Origin: Bacteroidota bacterium
Lineage (GTDB): Bacteria; Bacteroidota; Ignavibacteria; Kryptoniales; JAKASW01
NCBI GenBank assembly: GCA_021789975.1
Contig: JAJYIT010000032.1
Span: 1 to 49,217, forward strand
Direction: 5' to 3'
DNA length: 49,217 bases
Both the position numbers and the translations under genes were made by a program. Below are positions 15,922 through 27,567 of the stretch, in pieces. Within the stretch, counting starts at the first letter, position 1. Each line of letters begins with the position of its first letter. The notes under the pieces were generated by a model, which saw only the letters and a program-made list of their open reading frames with translations, was not told the DNA's origin and did no database searches.

Positions 15922-16955
15922 TTAGTGGTATAGAACGCCGCCGACAGCCATCCGCACCAGTGTTTGTAGGAAGCCGGTGCAGTCGTCCCCATTCCAGTGT
16001 TTCTCAAAGGAAGCACGCTCTCGGAGTACGAATCCGAATAGCGAAGCACTTTTCCATCGAGCTTCTTTCCGGAGACTTTCGAGACAGTTTTCTCGGCAGT
16101 CAATAGTCCGAATGGCACAGAAAACTTTCCGCACCAAAGGGTGTTGTCCATCTCATGCGTCAGGTCTTCCACTTTGTCGTCAGAGAGAACTCCATCGAGA
16201 TCTTTGTGAGCGATGCGCCTGTCATTAGCTGTTGCCTCCTCGTGCGCGCGTGCATCTTCACCGTAGGGAGAATTGTCGAAGTCCTCGCCATAATGGTCCG
16301 CATCTGACGACATCAGGAATACGATATCCTTTCCCAATTTCACGTGACGCTTCGCTATGTATTTTGCAATGATTATAGAAAGCTGATTTGAAATCGTCTC
16401 CATTCTTCCGTACGACATCTGTGTGACCATAATAGGCGTGATTCTTATGTTCGGGTTGTAGTACTGCAGCCAGGGAAGTAATGCCTCGATAGAGTGTTCG
16501 AGTGCCTGGGCCTTGTCGTTGACGACGAAGAACGAAGTGTCGAGGTGAGCTTTGATATACTCCCTTAACGGAGAGACTACCACGGTGTGCCTGATTCCCG
16601 GCCAGGCCTTGAAGTTGTCGAGTATGAGAATATTACGCGGATCGCCGATTTCTTTTCTGACATCGCCGTGTGTTACTCCGAAAATAACAACTTCCTTTGT
16701 TCGGAGAACTCTGTAAAGTGGATAATAAACCCGGGCCGCATACATGTAATCGTCGTGCGGAGAGACCGCGGCTACGAAATTCGACTGCGCCGGCGGTTCG
16801 GTCTCGATGCTCTTGACGTAGTTGACGAGCCGGTTCATCTGGGCAGCGTCCCAGCAAAAGCCGACGTTGTCGCGGACAGGCTTCACATTTTGCCCCGACA
16901 GATTCGATACGTCGATACAGAAAAGAATTGCAACGAAAGCTACAATGAACCTCAT
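15918..16955 (-). CDS. Secreted MEMO-family protein (AmmeMemoRadiSam system protein B-like)
   Basis: A signal peptide (MRFIVAFVAILFCIDVSNLS) precedes a complete MEMO fold. All four residues that correspond to the metal site described for human MEMO1 are present: His67 in SPHDDY, His96 in GVTHGD, His221 in SSDADHYGE and Cys275 in LWCGKF. The second family signature LEHSIEALLPWLQ (152-164) is also intact. MEMO-like proteins resemble extradiol dioxygenases and bind iron or copper. In bacteria they are usually cytoplasmic and found with an AMMECR1 protein and a radical SAM enzyme; neither partner is in this window, and here the protein appears exported. It forms a two-gene operon with the membrane protein downstream. 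The start is an ATG preceded by GGAGGG on the minus strand. Confidence 0.85.
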   Translation of the reverse strand: MRFIVAFVAILFCIDVSNLSGQNVKPVRDNVGFCWDAAQMNRLVNYVKSIETEPPAQSNFVAAVSPHDDYMYAARVYYPLYRVLRTKEVVIFGVTHGDVRKEIGDPRNILILDNFKAWPGIRHTVVVSPLREYIKAHLDTSFFVVNDKAQALEHSIEALLPWLQYYNPNIRITPIMVTQMSYGRMETISNQLSIIIAKYIAKRHVKLGKDIVFLMSSDADHYGEDFDNSPYGEDARAHEEATANDRRIAHKDLDGVLSDDKVEDLTHEMDNTLWCGKFSVPFGLLTAEKTVSKVSGKKLDGKVLRYSDSYSESVLPLRNTGMGTTAPASYKHWCGWLSAAFYTTN

Positions 16956-17102
16956 AGACCCTCCTGAGCTTTGTTGAAATCTATCAACTGCTTGCTATAA
17001 ATCCTACCGGGACTCGACGCATCCGCTGCTCAATCCAGAATGGACTTTGCAAAAACTCCGTTCGGGAACTTTTTCCTTGACACCCGCTTCAAGGATCCAT
17101 AT

Positions 17103-17130
17103 CTTGTAACATTGTTGAGTTCTTTATAAT
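17103..17130 (+). promoter_or_regulatory. Probable sigma70-type promoter of the SAM riboswitch transcript
   Basis: A perfect TATAAT at 17125-17130 lies just before the riboswitch, with TTGTAA (four of six matches to TTGACA) at 17103-17108 and a 16-base spacer. A start near 17137 would place the whole riboswitch on the transcript. Confidence 0.55.
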
Positions 17131-17136
17131 ACCTCT

Positions 17137-17250
17137 TTCTTATCAAGAACGGTCGAGGGAACAGGCCCTGTGACGCCGTAGCAACCGTCCCCATTTTCGG
17201 GGAGTCAAGGTGCTAATTCCTGCTTCGCCTATTGCGAAGAGAGATGAGAA
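17137..17250 (+). promoter_or_regulatory. SAM-I (S-box) riboswitch
   Basis: The aptamer core is recognisable: CTTATCAAGAACGG at the 5' side of P1/P2, GAGGGAACAGGCCCTGTGACG, CCGTAGCAACC, a P3 hairpin around CCCCATTTTCGGGG, then AAGGTGCTAATTCCTGC and the closing GAGATGAGAAG. These are the conserved blocks of the S-box. It lies about 85 bases upstream of the cystathionine gamma-synthase-type gene and is followed by an intrinsic terminator. Bound S-adenosylmethionine should favour termination and shut the gene off when methionine/SAM is plentiful. Confidence 0.93.
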
Positions 17251-17268
17251 GAAGATGCGTACAATGCT

Positions 17269-17299
17269 ACCTCTTCTGATCATCGGAAGAGGTTTTTTT
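17269..17299 (+). terminator. Intrinsic terminator of the SAM-I riboswitch
   Basis: The stem ACCTCTTC (17269-17276) with GAAGAGGT (17286-17293) closes a 9-base loop and is followed by seven T. The purine-rich 3' side of the aptamer (GATGAGAAGAAG, 17243-17254) can pair with the pyrimidine-rich 5' arm, giving the expected antiterminator. Confidence 0.9.
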
Positions 17300-17333
17300 G
17301 TGATCATTGTTTTCAAACAGACGAGGAAATTGT

Positions 17334-18524
17334 ATGCGTCTTCAAACAAAGACGGTTCACACCGGTGTAGATAAAGACACGGCTTTCAACAGCGTCATCA
17401 CCCCCATTTACCAGACTTCCACATTTCGATTCGAGGACGTAGGGAAATCAAAGGGCTTCGATTATACAAGGAGCGCTAATCCGACTCGGAGAGCGCTTGA
17501 AGAAAACATCGCGGCATTAGAGGGTGGGACATCCTGCGCCGTCGTCGCTACCGGTATGGCGGCGGTCGCACTTGCGCTTCATTTCTTCAAGAGTGGCGAC
17601 CACATTATCTGTACTCACGACTGTTATGGTGGTACGGAACGGCTGCTTAGAACATACCGCGACCAGTTCGGTCTGGAAATCTCCTATGTTGACATGCGTG
17701 ACCCCGATTTAGTCAGATCGGCAATTAGACCGAATACAAAAGGATTCTGGATCGAGACACCGAGCAATCCGCTTCTCAACATCATCGATATCCGCACCAT
17801 ATCTGAGATTCCTCACGAGTGGGGGTCTCTGGCTATCGTGGACAACACTTTCCTTTCGCCTGTCAATCAGAGACCGTTCGAGCTTGGAGCCGACATCATC
17901 ATTCACTCTACGACCAAGTACTTGAATGGACACAGTGATGTGGTCGGCGGAGCTGTCGTTGTGAAGCGGCCGGATCATGCAGAGAAGCTGCAATTCCTGG
18001 CAAATGCTGTCGGACTCGGTGCGTCGCCTTTCGACTGTTGGCTCGTTCTGCGTGGAATAAAGACGCTGGCGCCACGCATGAAGGAGCATGAGAGAAACGC
18101 GAGGGCTGTTGCAGAATTCCTTTCGAGTCATCCTTCCGTGGGCAAAGTTTTTTATCCCGGTCTCCCTACACATCCGCAGCATGACCTGGCAATGAGGCAG
18201 CAGCATGGGTTTGGCGGAATGGTTTCATTCGAAGTCGACGGCGAAATTAGCGACGTGCAGCACGTCCTTCGTTCGACAAGAATATTTACACTCGCCGAGT
18301 CGCTTGGCGGCGTCGAGTCTCTGATTGAACATCCTGCTACGATGAGTCATGCATCGATGGCAGCCGAGCTGCATGAGAGAGCAGGGATCAACGAGCGAGT
18401 CATCCGACTGTCGGTCGGGATTGAGGACGTCGATGATCTGATTGAGGATCTCGATCAGGCACTGAAGTTCAAAAATGACAACCTATCTTTTGCCGAGACT
18501 CCCAAAGAGGCGGTCGAATGCTGA
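17334..18524 (+). CDS. metB: Trans-sulfuration PLP enzyme, cystathionine gamma-synthase type
   Basis: This is a full-length Cys/Met-metabolism PLP enzyme of 396 residues. The cofactor lysine is Lys195 in HSTTKYLNGH, the pyridine-nitrogen Asp is Asp170 in VDNTF, the phosphate/Tyr motif is YTRSANPTR (44-52), and SNP at 144-146 follows the family pattern. Such enzymes make cystathionine from an activated homoserine and cysteine (MetB), cleave it (MetC/CGL), or sulfhydrylate homoserine esters; sequence alone does not separate these cleanly. Control by a SAM-I riboswitch favours a methionine-biosynthetic role. The ATG at 17334 is chosen over an in-frame TTG at 17307 because it follows GAGGAAAT. 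It precedes the cysteine operon in the same direction. Confidence 0.88.
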   Translation: MRLQTKTVHTGVDKDTAFNSVITPIYQTSTFRFEDVGKSKGFDYTRSANPTRRALEENIAALEGGTSCAVVATGMAAVALALHFFKSGDHIICTHDCYGGTERLLRTYRDQFGLEISYVDMRDPDLVRSAIRPNTKGFWIETPSNPLLNIIDIRTISEIPHEWGSLAIVDNTFLSPVNQRPFELGADIIIHSTTKYLNGHSDVVGGAVVVKRPDHAEKLQFLANAVGLGASPFDCWLVLRGIKTLAPRMKEHERNARAVAEFLSSHPSVGKVFYPGLPTHPQHDLAMRQQHGFGGMVSFEVDGEISDVQHVLRSTRIFTLAESLGGVESLIEHPATMSHASMAAELHERAGINERVIRLSVGIEDVDDLIEDLDQALKFKNDNLSFAETPKEAVEC

Positions 18525-18691
18525 CCTGGATTGCACGAAACGAGGAAGTGTCATTCTGCGTCTATTCTCATCGTATCCTCGCCTATGGATGGGGTAACTC
18601 AAAAAGGATGATGCTGGTAAGATGATGCCAAATCCTTCGCGGTTCTTTCATTCAGGAAAATCTTAAGAGTAAGGGAAAGGACTTCAGGTTT

Positions 18692-18756
18692 GTCATGACT
18701 TTTGAAAATAATACTTGACAAAACCGTCATGATTTTATAACTTGTAACCGTCATGA
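18692..18756 (+). promoter_or_regulatory. Promoter with repeated TCATGA operator-like sites
   Basis: TTGACA at 18716-18721 is a perfect -35 box; the best -10 is TATAAC at 18736-18741, with a short 14-base spacer. The 11-mer AACCGTCATGA occurs twice, at 18722-18732 and 18746-18756, flanking the -10 box, and a third GTCATGAC palindrome lies at 18692-18699. The TCATGA core is palindromic. This arrangement suggests a repressor that occupies the core promoter, in addition to the attenuator downstream. Confidence 0.5.
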
Positions 18757-18860
18757 GAACCGAAAAACATTCACGAAAAGCAGAGAGTCTTTTGACCTGC
18801 GCTTGTTGTTGTTGCTGTATGAACGGATCGCTCTGTTTTCGCGAAGGCGTAGGTCCATGA
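18753..18860 (+). CDS. Cysteine-rich leader peptide of the cysteine operon attenuator
   Basis: An ATG at 18753 opens a 35-codon ORF ending in TGA at 18858-18860. Residues 15-23 read TCACCCCCM: Cys16, then five consecutive Cys codons 18-22 (TGT TGT TGT TGC TGT, 18804-18818), plus Cys28, so 7 of 35 residues are Cys. A strong terminator lies 24 bases after the stop and the sulfite reductase gene follows. This is the layout of a classical amino-acid attenuator. No Shine-Dalgarno site precedes the ATG, and the -10 box would put the transcript start about 5 bases upstream, so the mRNA may be nearly leaderless. The segment CGAAGGC (18842-18848) can pair, with one bulge, with GCCCTTTG in the 5' arm of the terminator. 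A ribosome at the stop codon would cover it, and one stalled at the Cys codons would leave it free. Confidence 0.75.
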   Translation: MRTEKHSRKAESLLTCACCCCCMNGSLCFREGVGP

Positions 18861-18884
18861 TTTAAAGTACCATACGAGATTTTC

Positions 18885-18920
18885 AAAGCCCTTTGTCGAA
18901 AGCAGACAAAGGGCTTTTTT
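18885..18920 (+). terminator. Attenuator terminator before sulfite reductase
   Basis: A perfect 13-base-pair stem, AAAGCCCTTTGTC (18885-18897) with GACAAAGGGCTTT (18905-18917), closes the 7-base loop GAAAGCA and ends in six T (18915-18920). It lies between the Cys leader ORF and the first structural gene, so it must be bypassed for the operon to be expressed. Confidence 0.93.
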
Positions 18921-18983
18921 GTTTATATAGACTTTATGAGTTGCCAAGTACGAGTTTGAAATTTGATATAGGAGGAGATGCTG

Positions 18984-20756
18984 TTGGAGATAGAGACGAG
19001 AGAATCGATTCAAACCGGAGTCGATAGCAGGGACGCTTACCAGGAAGATATAGATGCGATGCGTGATGCTATCCTGCGTTTCAAGCAGAACGAGTTGCCA
19101 GAGGATGAGTTCAAGCGATTCCGTCTTCACCGCGGCATCTATGGGCAGCGGGCCGACCAAAAGGGGTTCAATATGGTAAGGGTAAAGGTTCCATACGGAT
19201 TGCTCGACTCACGACAGCTTGTCACTCTTGCCGGAATCGCACGAGATTACTCCGACGGATTTGCTCACGTGACGACAAGGCAGGATGTTCAATTGCATTG
19301 GGTGCGCCTTGAGGCAGTACCTGACGTCATGGAGAAGTTGAATCAGGCTGGTCTCACCACCCGCGAAGCCTGCGGGAATACCGTTCGCAATATCGTTGGG
19401 TCGCCTCCCGCTGGCGTCTCACGAGACGAGTTGTTTGACGTTACCCCCTATGCGCACCTTCTTGCCTCACACCTTCTTCGCAATTCTTTGAACCAAACTC
19501 TGCCGCGCAAATTCAAGATTTCATTTTCAGGGAGCTCAGATGAGCGCGACGGCATCATACCCTGGATTCATGATATCGGATACGTTGCCGCAATTGAAGC
19601 CTCCGGCTCGAATGTGAAACGCGGCTTCAGAGTTTTCGTAGGGGGCGGACTCGGTGCCCAGCCTCGCGTGGCGGATCTGCTCGAGGAGTTCATCCCAGTC
19701 GAATGGCTGATCCCAACCACCGAAGCCATCCTGTCAATCTTTAACGAATTTGGGAATCGCGAGAAGAGGGACAAAGCGAGAATGAAATATGTATTGTGGC
19801 AGCTTGGCTTCGCAGAATTCAAGCAGAAGGTCGGCGAATTGAGATCGGGTATTCTGGCTGCAGGCAGAACATTTCCGGAGCCTGACATCGTGGATGAGGG
19901 CGGTTATCTTCCTCTGGATTCCCCAACTTTGCCTGCGACGAATGGCGACGTTGAATTCAATCGATGGCTTCACTCTAATGTCTTCAGCCAAAAACAAACT
20001 GGATACAATGTGGTCTATGTCAATCCGACGATCGGTGACATTACAGTGGATCAATTGCTTGCGCTGAGTCGGATTGCAGAGAATTACTCGAACGGCACAG
20101 TTCGAACCACGCCTCAGCAGGATATGGTGCTCCGCTGGATAAGGTCATCGGACATTCACTCTGTCTATAATGAATTGAAATCAGTTGGACTCAACCAGCC
20201 GGGAGCTCAGCAAACTGCAAACGTAACCTCATGTCCGGGTGCAGACACGTGCAATTTAGGTATCACCCACTCACGCGCTCTTGGCAGGGAGTTGACATTA
20301 TCGCTCCAGCGCCAGCCGGATTGGAGCGAGCTTCTGGGTGGAGTACGGATCAAGATCAGCGGCTGCATGAATTCATGCGGTCAGCATCACGTCGCGGCCA
20401 TCGGCTTTCATGGTGCAACGAAAAATGTCGAAGGAGGAGAAATACCGTCTTATATCGTATCGATCAGCGGAGGGATGAATTCAGGCAGATATAATTTTGG
20501 CAAAACCCTCGGGCGAGTACCTTCTCATTATGCGGCTGAGGCGGCACTGAGAATCATCAAAAGGTTTATTTCTGAAAGAATTGCCGGAGAGAATTTCTGG
20601 CAACTTGTCGAAAGGATCGGCGTTCGCCCATTCCGTGATGCAATATCCGACCTTGCCGATGTGCGGCCCGAAAAGATCACTGAAGAGCTATTCGTAGACA
20701 TTGGAGAGTCAACGAAGTTCGCGGCCGTAACTGGAGAGGGAGAATGCGCGGTATGA
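18984..20756 (+). CDS. sir: Sulfite (or nitrite) reductase, sirohaem/4Fe-4S type
   Basis: The protein has the two-fold ferredoxin-half/catalytic repeat of the assimilatory sulfite/nitrite reductase family. The four cluster and sirohaem cysteines are all present: Cys417 and Cys423 in TSCPGADTC and Cys461 and Cys465 in SGCMNSCGQHH. It reduces sulfite to sulfide with six electrons, normally from ferredoxin when no flavoprotein subunit is encoded; none is seen here. Its neighbours are siroheme synthase and cysteine synthase, which favours sulfite over nitrite. The TTG at 18984 is preferred because GGAGGAG lies at 18971-18977; the ATG at 18978 is too close to that site. Expression should depend on the Cys leader attenuator upstream. 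The next gene overlaps its 3' end by 13 bases. Confidence 0.9.
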   Translation: MEIETRESIQTGVDSRDAYQEDIDAMRDAILRFKQNELPEDEFKRFRLHRGIYGQRADQKGFNMVRVKVPYGLLDSRQLVTLAGIARDYSDGFAHVTTRQDVQLHWVRLEAVPDVMEKLNQAGLTTREACGNTVRNIVGSPPAGVSRDELFDVTPYAHLLASHLLRNSLNQTLPRKFKISFSGSSDERDGIIPWIHDIGYVAAIEASGSNVKRGFRVFVGGGLGAQPRVADLLEEFIPVEWLIPTTEAILSIFNEFGNREKRDKARMKYVLWQLGFAEFKQKVGELRSGILAAGRTFPEPDIVDEGGYLPLDSPTLPATNGDVEFNRWLHSNVFSQKQTGYNVVYVNPTIGDITVDQLLALSRIAENYSNGTVRTTPQQDMVLRWIRSSDIHSVYNELKSVGLNQPGAQQTANVTSCPGADTCNLGITHSRALGRELTLSLQRQPDWSELLGGVRIKISGCMNSCGQHHVAAIGFHGATKNVEGGEIPSYIVSISGGMNSGRYNFGKTLGRVPSHYAAEAALRIIKRFISERIAGENFWQLVERIGVRPFRDAISDLADVRPEKITEELFVDIGESTKFAAVTGEGECAV

Positions 20757-22222
20757 CAAGTATGAATAACCTTTATCCCGTATTCTTGAAATTGGAACAT
20801 CGCCGCGTTCTCGTGGTGGGCGGCGGGAAAGTCGCGCTGCAAAAAATTAGCGGTCTGCTTGATGCCGGGGCAGACACTACCGTTGTCGCCCCGGTCCTCG
20901 CTGAAGCGATCACGTCGATGGCCGCTTCCGGAAAGCTCCGTGTTTTCAACCGTGACTATCATGGAGATGAAGTCCACGGCTACTTCCTGGTTATCGCCGC
21001 AACGGACGATCGGTCTGTGCAAAAAAGAGTGTTCGAAGATGCGCGGAAATGGAATGTCCCGGTCAATATTGTGGATGAACCGGAAATGTGCGATTTTTAC
21101 CTCGGGGCGGTGTTCCAGGAAGGTGAACTGAAAATTGCCGTCTCCACTAACGGCAAGAGTCCGACGCTGGGGAAAATAATTCGTGACAAAATAAGAGAAG
21201 AGTATTCGAAGAGCTACCCTGATGTTCTCGATCGCCTGGGGAAAATCAGAGAGGATGTTCGGAATGCATATCCCGATTTCGAAAGCAGGAAACGATTTCA
21301 TGAGCAAATCATGAAGAGTGAGTTAGAACGCGTAAGAAGGAACATGGAACAGGGAAGACGGGACACGCCTGCGTGCCGAAACGACGCACTCTGGCGTGCA
21401 GGCACGGAACACGGGGAAAGGAAAGAGGACGCGCCATGCTCAAGAAAGGGAAAAGTCTATCTCATTGGAGCGGGCCCTGGTGATCCTGAACTGATCACCT
21501 TGAAGGGAATTCGGATTCTCCGCACCGCGAATGTTGTCGTCTATGACGCTCTGGTGAGCGATGAACTTCTTTTCGAGGTTCCTCAGTCGGTCGAAAAAAT
21601 CTACGTCGGGAAGCGGGCAGGGAAACACTGCATGAAGCAAAGCGAGATCAATGCGATCCTTCTTGAGAAAGCACAGGAAGGGAAAACGGTTGTCAGACTG
21701 AAAGGCGGCGATCCTTTTGTCTTTGGTCGTGGCGGTGAAGAAATGGAATTCTTGAATGATGCCGGTATCGAAGTCGAGGTTGTTCCAGGTGTCACTTCCG
21801 GTATTGGAGTTCCGACATCGCTCGGCATTCCGTTGACTTACCGGAATGTGGCTTCGAGTGTCGCTTTCGTTACCGGCCACGAAGATCCTGAGAAAGACTG
21901 CAAGAGTATCAACTGGGAGGGAATTGCCTCTGCGGACTCAATCGTCATATACATGGGAGTAAGACGCGTCGCTTGCATTGTTGAGAGATTGATTGGTGCA
22001 GGCGTCACACCGGAAAAGCCGGTAGCCGTGATCTTCGGCGGAACGCTTCCTACCGCGCAGGTGATAACCGGTAAACTGTCTGAAATCTCCGATCAGGTCG
22101 CCGAAGCTGGCGGCAATTTGCCCGGGTTGATAGTGGTCGGCGACGTCGTGAGCAAATTCAGTTGGAGCCTATCAAACTACAGATACTGTGAGCACGATTA
22201 CGTTCTTAGGGAATCTTTTTAA
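20744..22222 (+). CDS. cysG: Siroheme synthase, fused precorrin-2 dehydrogenase/ferrochelatase and uroporphyrinogen-III methyltransferase
   Basis: Residues 1-200 are the NAD-dependent dehydrogenase/ferrochelatase half (VLVVGGGKVALQK at 22-34; catalytic-type Asp in VNIVDEPE). Residues about 236-475 are the SAM-dependent uroporphyrinogen-III C-methyltransferase (VYLIGAGPGDPELITLKG, VVRLKGGDPFVFGRGGEE, VPGVTSG). Together they make sirohaem from uroporphyrinogen III for the sulfite reductase encoded upstream. The order matches E. coli CysG, but at 492 residues it is longer, because residues 201-233 between the halves are an Arg/Cys-rich insert made by a GC-rich hairpin in the DNA (21367-21403). 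The ATG at 20744 follows GAGAGGGAG. Two later in-frame ATGs (20753, 20762) are possible. Its stop overlaps the next start as TAATG. Confidence 0.92.
   Translation: MRGMTSMNNLYPVFLKLEHRRVLVVGGGKVALQKISGLLDAGADTTVVAPVLAEAITSMAASGKLRVFNRDYHGDEVHGYFLVIAATDDRSVQKRVFEDARKWNVPVNIVDEPEMCDFYLGAVFQEGELKIAVSTNGKSPTLGKIIRDKIREEYSKSYPDVLDRLGKIREDVRNAYPDFESRKRFHEQIMKSELERVRRNMEQGRRDTPACRNDALWRAGTEHGERKEDAPCSRKGKVYLIGAGPGDPELITLKGIRILRTANVVVYDALVSDELLFEVPQSVEKIYVGKRAGKHCMKQSEINAILLEKAQEGKTVVRLKGGDPFVFGRGGEEMEFLNDAGIEVEVVPGVTSGIGVPTSLGIPLTYRNVASSVAFVTGHEDPEKDCKSINWEGIASADSIVIYMGVRRVACIVERLIGAGVTPEKPVAVIFGGTLPTAQVITGKLSEISDQVAEAGGNLPGLIVVGDVVSKFSWSLSNYRYCEHDYVLRESF
21367..21403 (+). repeat. In-frame GC-rich hairpin element inside cysG
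   Basis: The arms GCCTGCGTGCC (21367-21377) and GGCGTGCAGGC (21393-21403) form an 11-base-pair stem with two G-U pairs around a 15-base loop. It lies in the linker between the two enzyme domains and is read in frame as TPACRNDALWRAG. It resembles the CCTGCCTGCCGG-type palindromes found between genes in this window. Confidence 0.6.
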
Positions 22223-22464
22223 TGAACAAGCTTGTTTGTAGTGTGGAAAGATGTTCAGAAGAACCGATTGCACGAGGGCTCTGCTGGAAGCATTACCGGA
22301 GGCAACAACGCCACGGCAGTGTTGAATACGTGAAAAGACGGTATAGGATGCCTCCGAAGTGTAAGTACTGCGGTGTAACCGGAGCAGTGAACTTCTATGG
22401 ATCTTATAAGAGTATTTGCAAAAGATGCAAGAAACTTAGAGCCGCTTTGCGGTCAGCAAGTTGA
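22222..22464 (+). CDS. Small zinc-ribbon protein of unknown function
   Basis: An 80-residue basic protein whose ATG overlaps the cysG stop (TAATG), implying coupled translation. It has two metal-binding patterns: CSVERC with GLCWKHYRR in the N-terminal half (Cys6, Cys11, then Cys and His about 12 residues later), and CKYC with CKRC in the C-terminal half. The N-terminal 'C-x4-C ... RGLCxxHYxR' motif is common in small phage and bacterial proteins, often beside HNH nucleases, and suggests nucleic-acid or protein binding. No enzymatic motif is present. Its place inside a cysteine operon is unusual; it could be a regulator, a metal or sulfur chaperone, or a hitchhiker. Confidence 0.75.
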   Translation: MNKLVCSVERCSEEPIARGLCWKHYRRQQRHGSVEYVKRRYRMPPKCKYCGVTGAVNFYGSYKSICKRCKKLRAALRSAS

Positions 22465-22542
22465 AAGGTAATGGTACGGTACTGAAAGGTCATGCAGAAG
22501 TTTATGAATGACATGAATTATGGTACAGGAGGTGGTCATAGC

Positions 22543-23487
22543 GTGATATCAGAAATTGAGGTCGAAAAGGCAGAGAGCCAGATAGGCGATCGTCATTCCG
22601 TTCTAGGAAACATAGGGAACACCCCGCTTCTGAAGATCCGAAGGATCATGCCGCAGAACGAATGTGTGGAAATATATGCGAAAGCAGAATGGTTCAATCC
22701 GGGTGGATCGATAAAGGACCGCGCGGCGTTGAGCATGATCATGGATGCGGAGAAGTCGGGCGCCCTTACCCGGGATAAGGCTGTCATCGACGCAACGAGC
22801 GGCAATACGGGGATCGCGTACGCGATGATCGGCAGCGCGCTCGGATATCGAGTTGTACTTGCACTTCCCTCTAATGCAAGCAGGGAACGCAAGAATGCCC
22901 TCTTTGCATACGGCGCGGAAATAATCTTCACGGATCCTCTCTTGGGAACCGATGGTGCCCAGCAAAAAGTGAAGGAGATCGTTGCTTCAGAACCGGACAA
23001 ATACTTCTATCCAGACCAGTACAACAACCCTGCCAACTGGAGGGCACACTACCGTACCACGGCCGTTGAAATATGGGAACAGTCTGGACATCGCGTGACA
23101 CACTTCGTTGCCGGACTCGGAACGAGCGGTACTTTTGTGGGTACTTCGCGGCGCCTGAAGGAATTCAATCCGTCCGTAGAATGCGTATCGTTTCAACCCG
23201 ACTCGCCGCTTCATGGACTTGAGGGACTAAAATATCTAGAGACTTCCATAGTACCGGGGATTTACGACCCGACTCTCGCAGATGATCAACTGTTCGTGTC
23301 GACTGACGAGGCCTATGAGATGGTCAGGCGCCTTGCCCGCGAGGAGGGGATGTTCGTGGGAATTTCCAGCGGCGCAGCGATGGCTGCAAGCCTTAAGCTT
23401 GCGTCCCGGATTGACTCGGGAGTCATCGTCACTGTTTTCCCTGATAGCGGGTCAAGGTATGGGACGGAGCATTTCACAAATGAGTAG
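22543..23487 (+). CDS. cysM: Cysteine synthase family PLP enzyme
   Basis: A fold-type II PLP enzyme of 314 residues: cofactor Lys58 in GGSIKDR, substrate-binding TSGNTG (85-90), phosphate-binding GLGTSGT, and SSGAAMAA near the C-terminus. The family joins sulfide, or a protein-bound thiocarboxylate, to O-acetylserine or O-phosphoserine to make cysteine. The GTG at 22543 is preferred because GGAGGT at 22528-22533 is well placed for it; an ATG at 22492 would add 17 residues. The segment VPGIYDP resembles the CysM type that works with the CysO carrier. The adjacent JAMM protease and sulfur-carrier fusion genes support that role, so I use cysM rather than cysK, but the acceptor is inferred from context. 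Confidence 0.85.
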   Translation: MISEIEVEKAESQIGDRHSVLGNIGNTPLLKIRRIMPQNECVEIYAKAEWFNPGGSIKDRAALSMIMDAEKSGALTRDKAVIDATSGNTGIAYAMIGSALGYRVVLALPSNASRERKNALFAYGAEIIFTDPLLGTDGAQQKVKEIVASEPDKYFYPDQYNNPANWRAHYRTTAVEIWEQSGHRVTHFVAGLGTSGTFVGTSRRLKEFNPSVECVSFQPDSPLHGLEGLKYLETSIVPGIYDPTLADDQLFVSTDEAYEMVRRLAREEGMFVGISSGAAMAASLKLASRIDSGVIVTVFPDSGSRYGTEHFTNE

Positions 23488-23534
23488 AAGAGAAATAGTC
23501 GGTCGATGATTGGAATAACCGAGGAAATGGATGT

Positions 23535-24059
23535 ATGATAAAAATCTCAAAAGAAGCAATCGGAAAAATCGAACTTCACGGCAAGAAGACATATCCTGAA
23601 GAGTGTTGCGGTGTAATGCTCGGCCGAAGCGATGGTGACAGACAGACAGTCTATGACATTGTGGAGTTTGATAATAACCAGGATGAGAACAGGCGGAGAA
23701 GGTTTTTTGTGACGCCAAAGCAATATCTTCAGGCAGAACGGCTTGCCTCTGAGAATAGTCTGGAACTCCTCGGTTTCTACCATTCTCACCCGGACCATCC
23801 TGCTATCCCGTCCGAATACGATCGCGATCATGCTCTTCCGTGGTTTACTTATGTCATAGTATCCATTATGAATCGCGAGGCAAAAGGCATCGCAGCGTGG
23901 CTTCTTTCTGAAGATCGCTCGCATTTCAATGAGAGAGAAATGCTTGTGCATGATTCTGGAAAGATGTCGCTTGAACGGACTCTGACGCTTGCGACAGAAC
24001 AGCAAGATAATTTCAATAAGTACAAAGAAATCGGCGCCAGTTCAAAAGTTGGCGATTGA
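23535..24059 (+). CDS. mec: JAMM/MPN+ metalloprotease, Mec-like
   Basis: A 174-residue single-domain JAMM peptidase with every catalytic element: Glu23 in PEECCG, and the zinc site His83, His85 and Asp96 with Ser93 in HSHPDHPAIPSEYD. In mycobacteria the homologous Mec protein cleaves the CysO-cysteine adduct to release free cysteine and regenerate the carrier. More generally JAMM enzymes cut bonds after a ubiquitin-fold Gly-Gly. Here the next gene, 16 bases downstream, encodes such a carrier fused at its Gly-Gly to an activating enzyme, so this protease may act on the adduct, on the fusion junction, or both. The assignment rests on intact motifs and operon context. Substrate is inferred. Confidence 0.9.
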   Translation: MIKISKEAIGKIELHGKKTYPEECCGVMLGRSDGDRQTVYDIVEFDNNQDENRRRRFFVTPKQYLQAERLASENSLELLGFYHSHPDHPAIPSEYDRDHALPWFTYVIVSIMNREAKGIAAWLLSEDRSHFNEREMLVHDSGKMSLERTLTLATEQQDNFNKYKEIGASSKVGD

Positions 24060-24075
24060 AAAACCAGGAGAAAAA

Positions 24076-25563
24076 ATGTCGATACAAGTATTAATACCAA
24101 CACCTCTAAGACCTTACACAGACAAGCGCGACACAATTGAGGTGGAAGGCCAAACTGTCGGTGAAGTTCTTCAGAACCTGTCGAAAAAGTATGCCCAGAT
24201 CCATCAGCATCTTTACGCCGAAAATGGGAATCTAAGGAGTTATGTGAATGTCTACGTGAATGACGAGGATATTAGATATCTCGCGAAAGATAGAACGCCT
24301 GTAAGCGAGAAGGATACGATCAGTATCATTCCTTCCATAGCAGGTGGAGCGCCTTCAGACAGGTCGGGAAGTGGTCGGGACGGAGAAGTGGAAGTGGCGA
24401 CGGCGGAAATTGAGAACGAGGTGATTCTGTCAAGAGATGAACTACTTCGTTATAGCAGACATCTAATCATTCCAGAGGTCGGAATAAGTGGTCAGAAGAA
24501 GTTGAAAGCCGGTAAGGTGTTGATGATCGGTGCAGGGGGACTCGGTTCCCCCCTTGGAATGTATTTGGCAGCCGCCGGTGTTGGAAAGATCGGCATCGTG
24601 GATTTCGACGTGGTGGACACGACAAACTTGCAACGACAGGTCATGCATTCGACGGAAGATGTCGGCAGACCGAAGCTCGATTCTGCGCGCGAGACGCTGA
24701 AGGGTATTAACCCTAACGTCGAAATTGAAACTTATGAGACGCGACTGACATCGGAGAATGCTCTTAGTCTGTTTGCCGATTATGATGTCATTGTTGATGG
24801 GACGGACAATTTCCCAACGAGATATCTTGTGAACGATGCTTGTGTTCTCCTCGGCAAGCCGAATGTCTATGGCTCGATCCTCCGTTTTGACGGACAGATA
24901 AGCGTGTTTGATGCGAAACGCGGACCGTGCTATCGCTGCTTGTATCCCACGCCACCTCCTCCCGGACTTGTGCCGAGTTGCGCGGAGGGTGGAGTCCTCG
25001 GCGTGCTCCCCGGAATTGTCGGGACACTACAAGCCCTCGAAGTGATCAAACTTCTTCTTGGGGAAGGCGATCCGCTCATAGGAAGACTCGTCTTGTTCGA
25101 TGCACTGAAGTTCAAGTTCCGCGAATTGAAGCTTCGCAAGAATCCGGAATGCCCGATCTGCGGACCAAATCCTACCATCCATGAGTTAATAGACTATGAG
25201 CAATTTTGCGGAATAACGCCTCCTCAACCGATAGAGCAGGTGGATGACAGAACGGAAATCTCTGTCGAGGATTTAAAAGCGAGGCTTGACCGCGGCGATG
25301 ATGTATTCGTCCTTGATGTACGCGAACCGCAAGAGTATGAGATTGTCAACCTCGGCGCTCCGCTAATACCGCTTTCGGAGCTCCCGAAGAGATATCAGGA
25401 GCTTGATCAGTCGAAGGAGATCGTGGTACACTGCAAAATGGGAGGACGGAGCGCGCGGGCCGCTGCTTTTCTCAGACAACACGGTTTCAAAAATGTGAAG
25501 AACCTGGTAGGCGGCATCGACGCCTGGGCAGAGAGAATAGACCCGACAATGGCGAGATACTGA
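24076..25563 (+). CDS. Fusion of ubiquitin-like sulfur carrier, E1-like adenylyltransferase and rhodanese
   Basis: From the ATG at 24076 (AGGAG upstream; an in-frame ATG at 23989 lies inside the previous gene) the product has 495 residues. Residues 1-91 are a ThiS/MoaD/CysO-type beta-grasp carrier ending in IIPSIAGG. About 92-117 is a charged linker. About 118-370 is a ThiF/MoeB adenylyltransferase with nucleotide motif IGAGGLGSP (151-159) and two zinc CxxC pairs (Cys285/288, Cys359/362). About 392-490 is a rhodanese with active-site Cys453 in HCKMGGRSA. The last two domains match MoeZ/MoeB-rhodanese proteins, which adenylate a carrier C-terminus and replace AMP with sulfur. Here the carrier is the N-terminal domain of its own activator, so Gly91 is not a free C-terminus. 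Either proteolysis after Gly91 exposes it or a second carrier is used. Confidence 0.9.
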   Translation: MSIQVLIPTPLRPYTDKRDTIEVEGQTVGEVLQNLSKKYAQIHQHLYAENGNLRSYVNVYVNDEDIRYLAKDRTPVSEKDTISIIPSIAGGAPSDRSGSGRDGEVEVATAEIENEVILSRDELLRYSRHLIIPEVGISGQKKLKAGKVLMIGAGGLGSPLGMYLAAAGVGKIGIVDFDVVDTTNLQRQVMHSTEDVGRPKLDSARETLKGINPNVEIETYETRLTSENALSLFADYDVIVDGTDNFPTRYLVNDACVLLGKPNVYGSILRFDGQISVFDAKRGPCYRCLYPTPPPPGLVPSCAEGGVLGVLPGIVGTLQALEVIKLLLGEGDPLIGRLVLFDALKFKFRELKLRKNPECPICGPNPTIHELIDYEQFCGITPPQPIEQVDDRTEISVEDLKARLDRGDDVFVLDVREPQEYEIVNLGAPLIPLSELPKRYQELDQSKEIVVHCKMGGRSARAAAFLRQHGFKNVKNLVGGIDAWAERIDPTMARY

Positions 25564-26085
25564 GGGCTGCCTGAGAGACCATGTATAGGAACGGCATTGT
25601 TACGTACGAAAGGCAGAAGAACATTAGTTAGGGATCGACGAGCGCGAGCTTGTGAAAGACATACTGGTCAGACCGGCATCAGGAAGAATATTCTACTTTC
25701 TGATCCCTTTTCTCCGGTCACCCTTACGGTGTCTTGTCCGTTTTAACGTTGTGCCTTTGTCCAGCGATCTTTGCCGGGAGGCATCACGCGTTCGGTTCCA
25801 GTGTTCCATCAGCTCAGCTTTATGCATCGTGGCACACACTCGCACCATGGCATCAGCTCCAGAAGCGCAGCCGAAAAGTGTAACCACTGCCGAAGGCATC
25901 ACTTCGTGAGAAGTCACCGAAAAAACTGCTCAGCAGTGGTACCGATGAGTATAGCAAAGAAGGCATTCGATGACAACGGGAAGCAATGGGGGAAATGGCC
26001 GTGGAAAGCTGTTTGTGTCCCCAACAGGAGTGACAGCTTAGACTTCCGTTTAGCGTAGGCTAATCTTCTTTACGCCCTCGCAGGC
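25564..26085. other. Intergenic region between convergent operons
   Basis: About 520 bases separate the sulfur operon from the minus-strand decarboxylase operon. A CCGAAAAGTGTAACCAC motif at about 25871 repeats a stretch near 9827. Short open frames exist on both strands but show no recognisable domain, no good ribosome-binding site and no family resemblance. I see no clear terminator hairpin with a T-run. Confidence 0.4.
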
Positions 26086-27567
26086 TCATCTGACTTTCTT
26101 TACATTTTCTCTGATCACGTCGAGAGCAAGTCGTACTTCCCTAAGGTGACTCCTGAAACTCATGATCGCGCATCGAATCCAGAACTCGCCATTTATCGTC
26201 GTTGATGAAAACAATACTCTTCCATCGACTCGGATCAAGTCCAGGAGTTGCTTGTTGACTCTCTCTTTGTCATTTCCCGGATACCTGAAGAGTACGATAG
26301 ATAGCTCCGGCTCGGGACCCGTCTCAAAACCCATGTCCTTGATTTCGCCATAAAAATACCTTGCGAGGAGAAGTTTCTCCCTGAGGTTTGTCCTGAACGC
26401 ATTCACTCCATGAAGATGGAGCGGGAGCCACATCCTCAGTCCTCTGAAATGTCTCGTCAATTCGATTCCGGAATCTGCCGGGCTTATTTCGTCATAACCC
26501 AACGCATCCTGCATATAAGAGGCACGTTCCAAATTCGATTCAAGGAGCGCCTTCCCATCTCTGACGAGTACTGCCCCAACTCCGAAGGGCAGGAACATTC
26601 CTTTGTGTGGATCCATCACGAGTGAGTCGGAGCGCTCAACTCCTTTGAATTTTTTCCCGGTTTCTTCGAGCAGCATGAAGAAACCACCATATGCAGCGTC
26701 AACATGAAACCATGCTCCGAATTTCTCGCAAAGATCTGCAATCTTCTCCAGCGGATCGATGGCGCCGGTGTCCGTGGTGCCCGCCGTTGCCACGACAAGA
26801 AAGGGATGGAGACCTTCTTCGACATCCCTGAGCATCATTTCTTCCAGATTATCGGAATCCATCCGGAATTCTGAGTCCATCCGAACTGTACGTTGAATTA
26901 TCTCGTCCAATCCGAGGATATGCACCGCCTTGTGAATGCAGTGATGTGCGTGCCCTGTGAAATAGATTACCGCTTTCTTAACGTTGGTGGAGTCGATACG
27001 GTACTTGTCCCTCGCAGTCTGAATTGCAGTCAAATTTGCGATTGACCCGCCTGATGTAAGGTTGCCGTGCGCAGTTTGAGGATACCCCGCAATTGAAGAG
27101 AGCCAGCGTATCATCTGGTTTTCGATAATGACGGCACCGGGGCTTGAGAAATAAACTCCAGCATAGCGGTTTGTCGCCGCTGCAAGCATGTCTGCAACCG
27201 AGCTTGCCCAGATTCCTCCGCTTGGAACATATGCGAATCCGGCGCCCGATGAAGAGTTTATGCCCACGCGGTTCACCTCATCCTTTAGAATAGCAAGCAA
27301 GTCGTCGAATTGCTTTGGATTGTCGCCGACCTTAAGAGACTTGAGGTGGGCGCACTCACCGTCGACGTATGCTTTCATATTTGCCAGCGAGTCGAGATAA
27401 TCATTGACGTATGAAGACGCTTTGGTTGATATTTCGTTTCTAAAAGCGACATCCGGTTCAAGGTTGAGGGATACTTTCTCAAGTTCAGAAATCTGCCGAA
27501 TGATGTCTTCGGTTGGCGAGGAGTTCTGCTGAGAGTCATTGAAACTTTTTCCAGGTTCTGGAGTCAT
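26086..27567 (-). CDS. PLP-dependent group II amino-acid decarboxylase
   Basis: A 493-residue fold-type I enzyme of the aromatic-L-amino-acid/glutamate decarboxylase group. The cofactor lysine is Lys322 in MDPHKGM, the PLP-stacking His lies in TGHAHHCIHKA (about 204-214), and the pyridine-nitrogen Asp is Asp290 in HVDAAYGG. The early Pro-Gly-Gly segment (YVPSGGIW) and the C-terminal AIMSFRSH helix fit the family. The substrate, an aromatic or acidic amino acid, cannot be decided. It is the last gene of a minus-strand operon after an AhpD-like and a SnoaL-like gene, with only 17 bases between it and the latter. Start ATG at 27567. Confidence 0.9.
   Translation of the reverse strand: MTPEPGKSFNDSQQNSSPTEDIIRQISELEKVSLNLEPDVAFRNEISTKASSYVNDYLDSLANMKAYVDGECAHLKSLKVGDNPKQFDDLLAILKDEVNRVGINSSSGAGFAYVPSGGIWASSVADMLAAATNRYAGVYFSSPGAVIIENQMIRWLSSIAGYPQTAHGNLTSGGSIANLTAIQTARDKYRIDSTNVKKAVIYFTGHAHHCIHKAVHILGLDEIIQRTVRMDSEFRMDSDNLEEMMLRDVEEGLHPFLVVATAGTTDTGAIDPLEKIADLCEKFGAWFHVDAAYGGFFMLLEETGKKFKGVERSDSLVMDPHKGMFLPFGVGAVLVRDGKALLESNLERASYMQDALGYDEISPADSGIELTRHFRGLRMWLPLHLHGVNAFRTNLREKLLLARYFYGEIKDMGFETGPEPELSIVLFRYPGNDKERVNKQLLDLIRVDGRVLFSSTTINGEFWIRCAIMSFRSHLREVRLALDVIRENVKKVR

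Follow-up and report, generated by a model that had tools for sequence, protein, structure and literature searches.

A predicted cysteine-specific transcription attenuator upstream of a sulfite reductase operon in the Ignavibacteria

The window, a 49,217-nt contig of a Bacteroidota bacterium assigned to the Ignavibacteria (JAJYIT010000032.1), carries a sulfur operon on its forward strand. Its first gene is sir, of the sulfite/nitrite reductase family (18978–20756), followed by cysG, encoding siroheme synthase (20744–22222; NF007922, above the cut-off), cysM, encoding cysteine synthase (22492–23487; TIGR01138, just below the cut-off), a mec-like JAB/JAMM peptidase gene (23535–24059; PF14464) and an ORF in which a ThiS-like sulfur carrier is fused to a ThiF/MoeB E1 and a rhodanese (23989–25563). 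The order sir-cysG-cysM-mec-carrier given in the first-pass annotation is confirmed, with the last ORF refined to this fusion. The fusion ORF has an internal Gly-Gly after its carrier domain, adjoins the JAB/JAMM peptidase gene and is kept in two relatives (G003 and G010). The sir gene probably starts at TTG 18984 and not at ATG 18978, because the spacing between AGGAGG and a TTG or GTG codon is conserved in the sequences of several relatives. Among named genomes, those nearest by this sulfite reductase are metagenome assemblies of uncultured bacteria recorded as 'Bacteroidetes bacterium' and 'Ignavibacteria(les) bacterium'.

Upstream of the operon, a cystathionine gamma-synthase-like gene (17307–18524) is preceded by a SAM riboswitch (Rfam RF00162, 90.7 bits; 17137–17250) and then a terminator, the whole unit covering 17137–17293. 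This riboswitch is the sole Rfam match in the window. The gene that it precedes lies directly upstream of the cysteine leader described below, and two adjacent sulfur operons would therefore stand under two different RNA switches, a SAM riboswitch and the predicted Cys attenuator.

Between the cystathionine gamma-synthase-like gene and sir lies a leader ORF of 35 codons plus a stop (18753–18860, forward strand), which translates to MRTEKHSRKAESLLTCACCCCCMNGSLCFREGVGP before its stop codon. It contains the five consecutive Cys codons reported by the first-pass annotation (18804–18818; TGT TGT TGT TGC TGT), which we propose as the ribosome's stall site. Given that 1.5% of the codons in this neighbourhood are Cys, at least seven Cys codons among 34 would arise with a probability of 8e-7. 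Five TGY codons in a row are found at this one place in the window and never in 100 shuffled versions of it, and the 4.7-Mb genome holds a single further site; that site lies within a long stop-free frame, and we rejected it as a short leader ORF. The leader is thus a short ORF in which cysteine codons stand in a row, and the genes downstream of it make that same amino acid.

A promoter-like site, TTGACA-N17-TAACTT (18715–18743, forward strand), ends 9 nt before the leader's ATG, and in the window this promoter-ATG pattern matches at the leader only (0.14 matches expected). The arrangement TTGACA-N17-TAnnTT with about 9 bases to the ATG is common to most leaders of the class and is absent in three of them (G049, G173 and G312). 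No Shine-Dalgarno motif was found in the examined stretch of any leader. Together, the promoter spacing and the missing Shine-Dalgarno motif predict that the transcript begins no more than a few bases from the AUG, which is also the arrangement of mycobacterial polycysteine ORFs, and the leader ORF is probably leaderless. In four related genomes (G002, G003, G010 and G012; loci L003, L006, L007 and L011), an element TTGTCAATTTAGAA lies directly upstream of the sir promoter and is possibly a regulator's site. The window lacks it and has GTCATGA repeats in its place. We discarded the element as a regulon marker; apart from the sir promoter it has one other site in the genus, which is unrelated.

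The leader is followed by an intrinsic terminator, located between it and the first structural gene. The hairpin (18885–18917, forward strand) has a 13-bp stem and a loop of 7, and three of the six T in its T run (18915–18920) double as closing bases of the stem. These are the stem length and T count that had been described earlier, and the stem begins after a 24-nt gap from the end of the leader stop codon at 18860. The stem core, AAGCCCTT..AAGGGCTTTT, is found nowhere else in the genome. Six terminator-like sites, a total not above chance, were found in 16900–26100, and the leader's stem is the longest among them. Rfam scans for T-boxes, riboswitches and known leader motifs returned no match at the leader or in 11 related loci.

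We then consider the genus; the first-pass annotation had proposed that the region upstream of sir be compared in related genomes. A sir gene close to the window's is present in 8 of 13 genomes, the window's own included, and in two copies in one of them (G002), for nine loci in total. All nine have a Cys-rich leader with its Cys cluster kept and share one terminator core, and the distance from stop codon to terminator is nearly constant; in a further genome that has no sir (G008), the Cys leader precedes cysM instead. The Cys codons vary between TGT and TGC only, and the run length shifts by whole codons (five in the window, four in G005). Downstream of the run, the segment TTTCGCGAAGG (18837–18847) is invariant across the genus in two reading frames, some species translating it as FREGVGP and others as SRRCGS. 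Therefore, it is the RNA, and not the peptide, that is constrained downstream of the Cys run.

This constrained segment falls within one strand of a competing structure. The first-pass annotation had paired 18842–18848 with the terminator's 5′ arm at 18888–18895; that pairing exists, but its extent was understated. The antiterminator runs from 18833–18847, overlapping the 3′ part of the leader ORF, to 18890–18905, comprising the terminator's 5′ arm and loop (both on the forward strand). It is about twice as long as had been stated and it takes in the terminator loop. Across leaders, the upstream strand ends about 5–16 nt ahead of the leader stop codon. We computed duplex energies for 24 leaders; antiterminators are weak in a few of them (G049, G133).

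Covariation within the genus alone was not significant. Because the core is invariant there, a genus-only count is uninformative, and we instead applied a swap test across families, re-pairing leaders and terminators at random among 14 divergent leaders of the class. The native duplexes sum to −249.2 kcal/mol, compared with −197.9 kcal/mol (sd 9.5) for the re-paired ones, and none of 20,000 leader-terminator permutations reaches the native value. The clearest case is G312, whose antiterminator strand has diverged in sequence and yet forms 14 contiguous pairs. The covariation between terminator and antiterminator for which a check had been suggested is thus found across divergent leaders, where the two strands have changed together.

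Next, we quantified how the ribosome's position affects these structures by folding the leader with the ribosome's footprint masked. With the terminator's 3′ arm not yet made, the probability of the antiterminator is 0.79 when the ribosome is at the Cys codons and 0.05 when it is at the stop codon, the opposite conformations anticipated by the first-pass annotation, and every other leader tested shifts in this direction too. At equilibrium, folding of the full-length RNA favours the terminator in nearly every state, and we therefore tested the switch by folding nascent RNAs of increasing length. In most leaders, a growing 3′ arm leaves the stalled state's antiterminator in place until 3–8 nt short of the complete arm, and in G152 it lasts to the arm's end; in one acidobacterial leader, the stalled-state probability never reaches 0.5. 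In the stop-codon state, the antiterminator is never favoured at any length of the 3′ arm. Since the terminator wins at full length in nearly all leaders, the switch must be kinetic. In the absence of a ribosome, the probability of the antiterminator is 0.78 in the window and 0.15–0.39 in several relatives; consequently, poor initiation on the window's leader would give readthrough. By folding and by the swap test, the antiterminator appears to exclude the terminator, to be free at the stall and to be covered at the stop codon.

To determine how widely the leader is distributed, we ran a covariance model built from the nine leaders of the genus over 391 genomes of the class and read the matches by hand. 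Cys leaders were found in at least seven families (f1, f4, f10, f13, f17, f18 and f22). The genes downstream, assigned by Pfam and NCBIfam for representatives and by reading for the remainder, are sir, cysE, cysK/cysM, cysH, a rhodanese gene and metY. The same model, trained on Cys leaders, also recovered leaders with other codon runs. Trp-rich leaders (WAWWW, YWFWW and similar) with terminators precede trpE-like genes (L052, L053, L055, L112, L207, L209 and L216), and in family f10 terminator-bearing Met-rich leaders (L199, L200, L202, L203, L204 and L217), some of them arranged in tandem, stand before metY, which encodes O-acetylhomoserine sulfhydrylase, or before other genes; MMCMCMMMRM exemplifies the Met-rich type. 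Functionally, no argument is stronger than this agreement between the repeated codon and the pathway downstream. The model is itself biased to the shared terminator core, and the similarity among Cys, Met and Trp leaders does not establish common descent. Weak matches that were bare terminators or chance, among them L031, L104, L105, L107, L109, L111, L210, L212, L218, L219, L220 and L221, were not counted. Outside the class and within the phylum, one Cys/Met leader precedes metY (G597).

Considering the computed conservation, terminator, coupled strands, promoter spacing and effect of ribosome position, the leader is very probably a Cys-specific, ribosome-mediated transcription attenuator. 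Transcription would begin at the leader AUG or a few bases before it, and a ribosome would load on the leaderless ORF and trail the RNA polymerase. When charged Cys-tRNA is ample, the ribosome would reach the stop codon and mask 18833–18847, allowing the terminator to form before sir. When it is scarce, the ribosome would stall at 18804–18818, leaving 18833–18847 free to pair with the emerging 5′ arm and loop of the terminator. With its loop sealed by the antiterminator, the terminator could not nucleate until nearly the whole 3′ arm has been made. By the time that arm is complete, the polymerase would have passed the T run and would continue into sir-cysG-cysM-mec-carrier. Low levels of charged cysteine tRNA would thereby turn the operon on, which is the logic of the trp attenuator applied to cysteine.

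The strongest competitor to this mechanism is translational attenuation, in which a stall at the Cys codons exposes the Shine-Dalgarno sequence of sir and the terminator is secondary. Leaderless polycysteine ORFs are described as working in this way in Mycobacterium smegmatis, according to the papers that cite the work (PMC13236596, PMC9031893), but here a strong terminator with a T run separates the leader from sir and changes together with the leader strand, and our folds, which extended to the terminator only, contained no pairing that hides the sir Shine-Dalgarno sequence. We consider a translational switch very unlikely at this locus. Slightly less likely still is a functional Cys-rich peptide, for example a metal-binding one, with a hairpin that merely ends its transcript. 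Short Cys-rich peptides are able to bind metals, but the frames that follow the Cys run differ between species while the RNA is kept, the terminator pairs with the ORF's own 3′ end, and Trp and Met leaders of the same layout precede trpE and metY. An accidental short ORF next to what is simply the terminator of the metB-like gene that ends upstream at 18524, on the same strand, is hardly credible, given the negligible probability of the Cys run, the nine loci of the genus and the leader's moves to other cys genes elsewhere.

Having set these alternatives aside, we compare the predicted transcription attenuator with known systems. It shares with the mycobacterial polycysteine attenuators (Canestrari 2020, as cited in PMC13236596, PMC9031893 and PMC9094748) a short ORF, leaderless as judged here by its promoter spacing, with contiguous Cys codons and a position upstream of cysteine-synthesis genes. 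It differs in that, as far as these citing papers describe them, the mycobacterial sORFs act translationally and, in Actinobacteria, Cys leader peptides are without obvious terminators (PMC1262725), whereas the locus here has an intrinsic terminator with an antiterminator to match. In Rhodobacterales, the uORFC-8-2 motif upstream of cysS combines a Cys-Cys uORF with an intrinsic terminator and has been proposed to respond to Cys-tRNA (PMC8632094). The likeness lies in the Cys codons of a uORF followed by a terminator; the differences are that its gene encodes cysteinyl-tRNA synthetase, whereas the gene downstream here is sir, that its two tandem Cys codons are inside a stem and that it belongs to another lineage. 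With the classical trp, his and leu attenuators of Proteobacteria, our leader shares regulatory codons, competing terminator and antiterminator structures, and ribosome position as the switch. Unlike them, it has Cys codons, no Shine-Dalgarno motif, no clear hairpin for the untranslated state and an antiterminator that includes the terminator loop. Attenuation by leader peptides is on record for Proteobacteria and Actinobacteria and, since 2010, for Firmicutes as well (PMC2965389); the wide survey of Lopatovskaya 2010, which we know through its citation in PMC4833913, may hold predictions for related phyla. In the open-access literature, we found no earlier report of a Cys attenuator in Ignavibacteria, nor of poly-Met attenuators, including Met-rich leaders before metY.

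Beyond the phylum, upstream Cys-rich short ORFs are present at several of 71 more distant sir loci, compared with one in shuffled controls. A terminator lies between the Cys-rich ORF and sir at three loci of Acidobacteria gp2 and two of Anaerolineales (L156, L165, L167, L175 and L188), each a single metagenome assembly. Computed for two leaders of each group, the duplex can form, though it exceeds shuffled controls only modestly. These cases raise the question of an ancient origin for the control of sulfite reductase by Cys attenuation, as against transfer or repeated invention. A broader reading takes the leaders of the Ignavibacteria-type bacteria as one modular leaderless cassette, whose codon run is exchanged between Cys, Met and Trp and which moves between genes with constant geometry and terminator type, serving as the main RNA-level control of sulfur amino acid synthesis, with poly-Met attenuators and with counterparts before sir in Acidobacteria and Anaerolineales. 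We hold this reading tentatively, at a little short of an even chance.

The leader would extend attenuation by leader peptides across an uncultured Bacteroidota/Ignavibacteriota lineage, in a form that is predicted to sense cysteine, uses an intrinsic terminator and apparently lacks a Shine-Dalgarno sequence. From it, the control of sulfur assimilation (sir, cysH, cysE and cysK/M) can be predicted in organisms with few experimental data, and the predicted attenuator is a conserved RNA whose switch between two strands can be put to the test.
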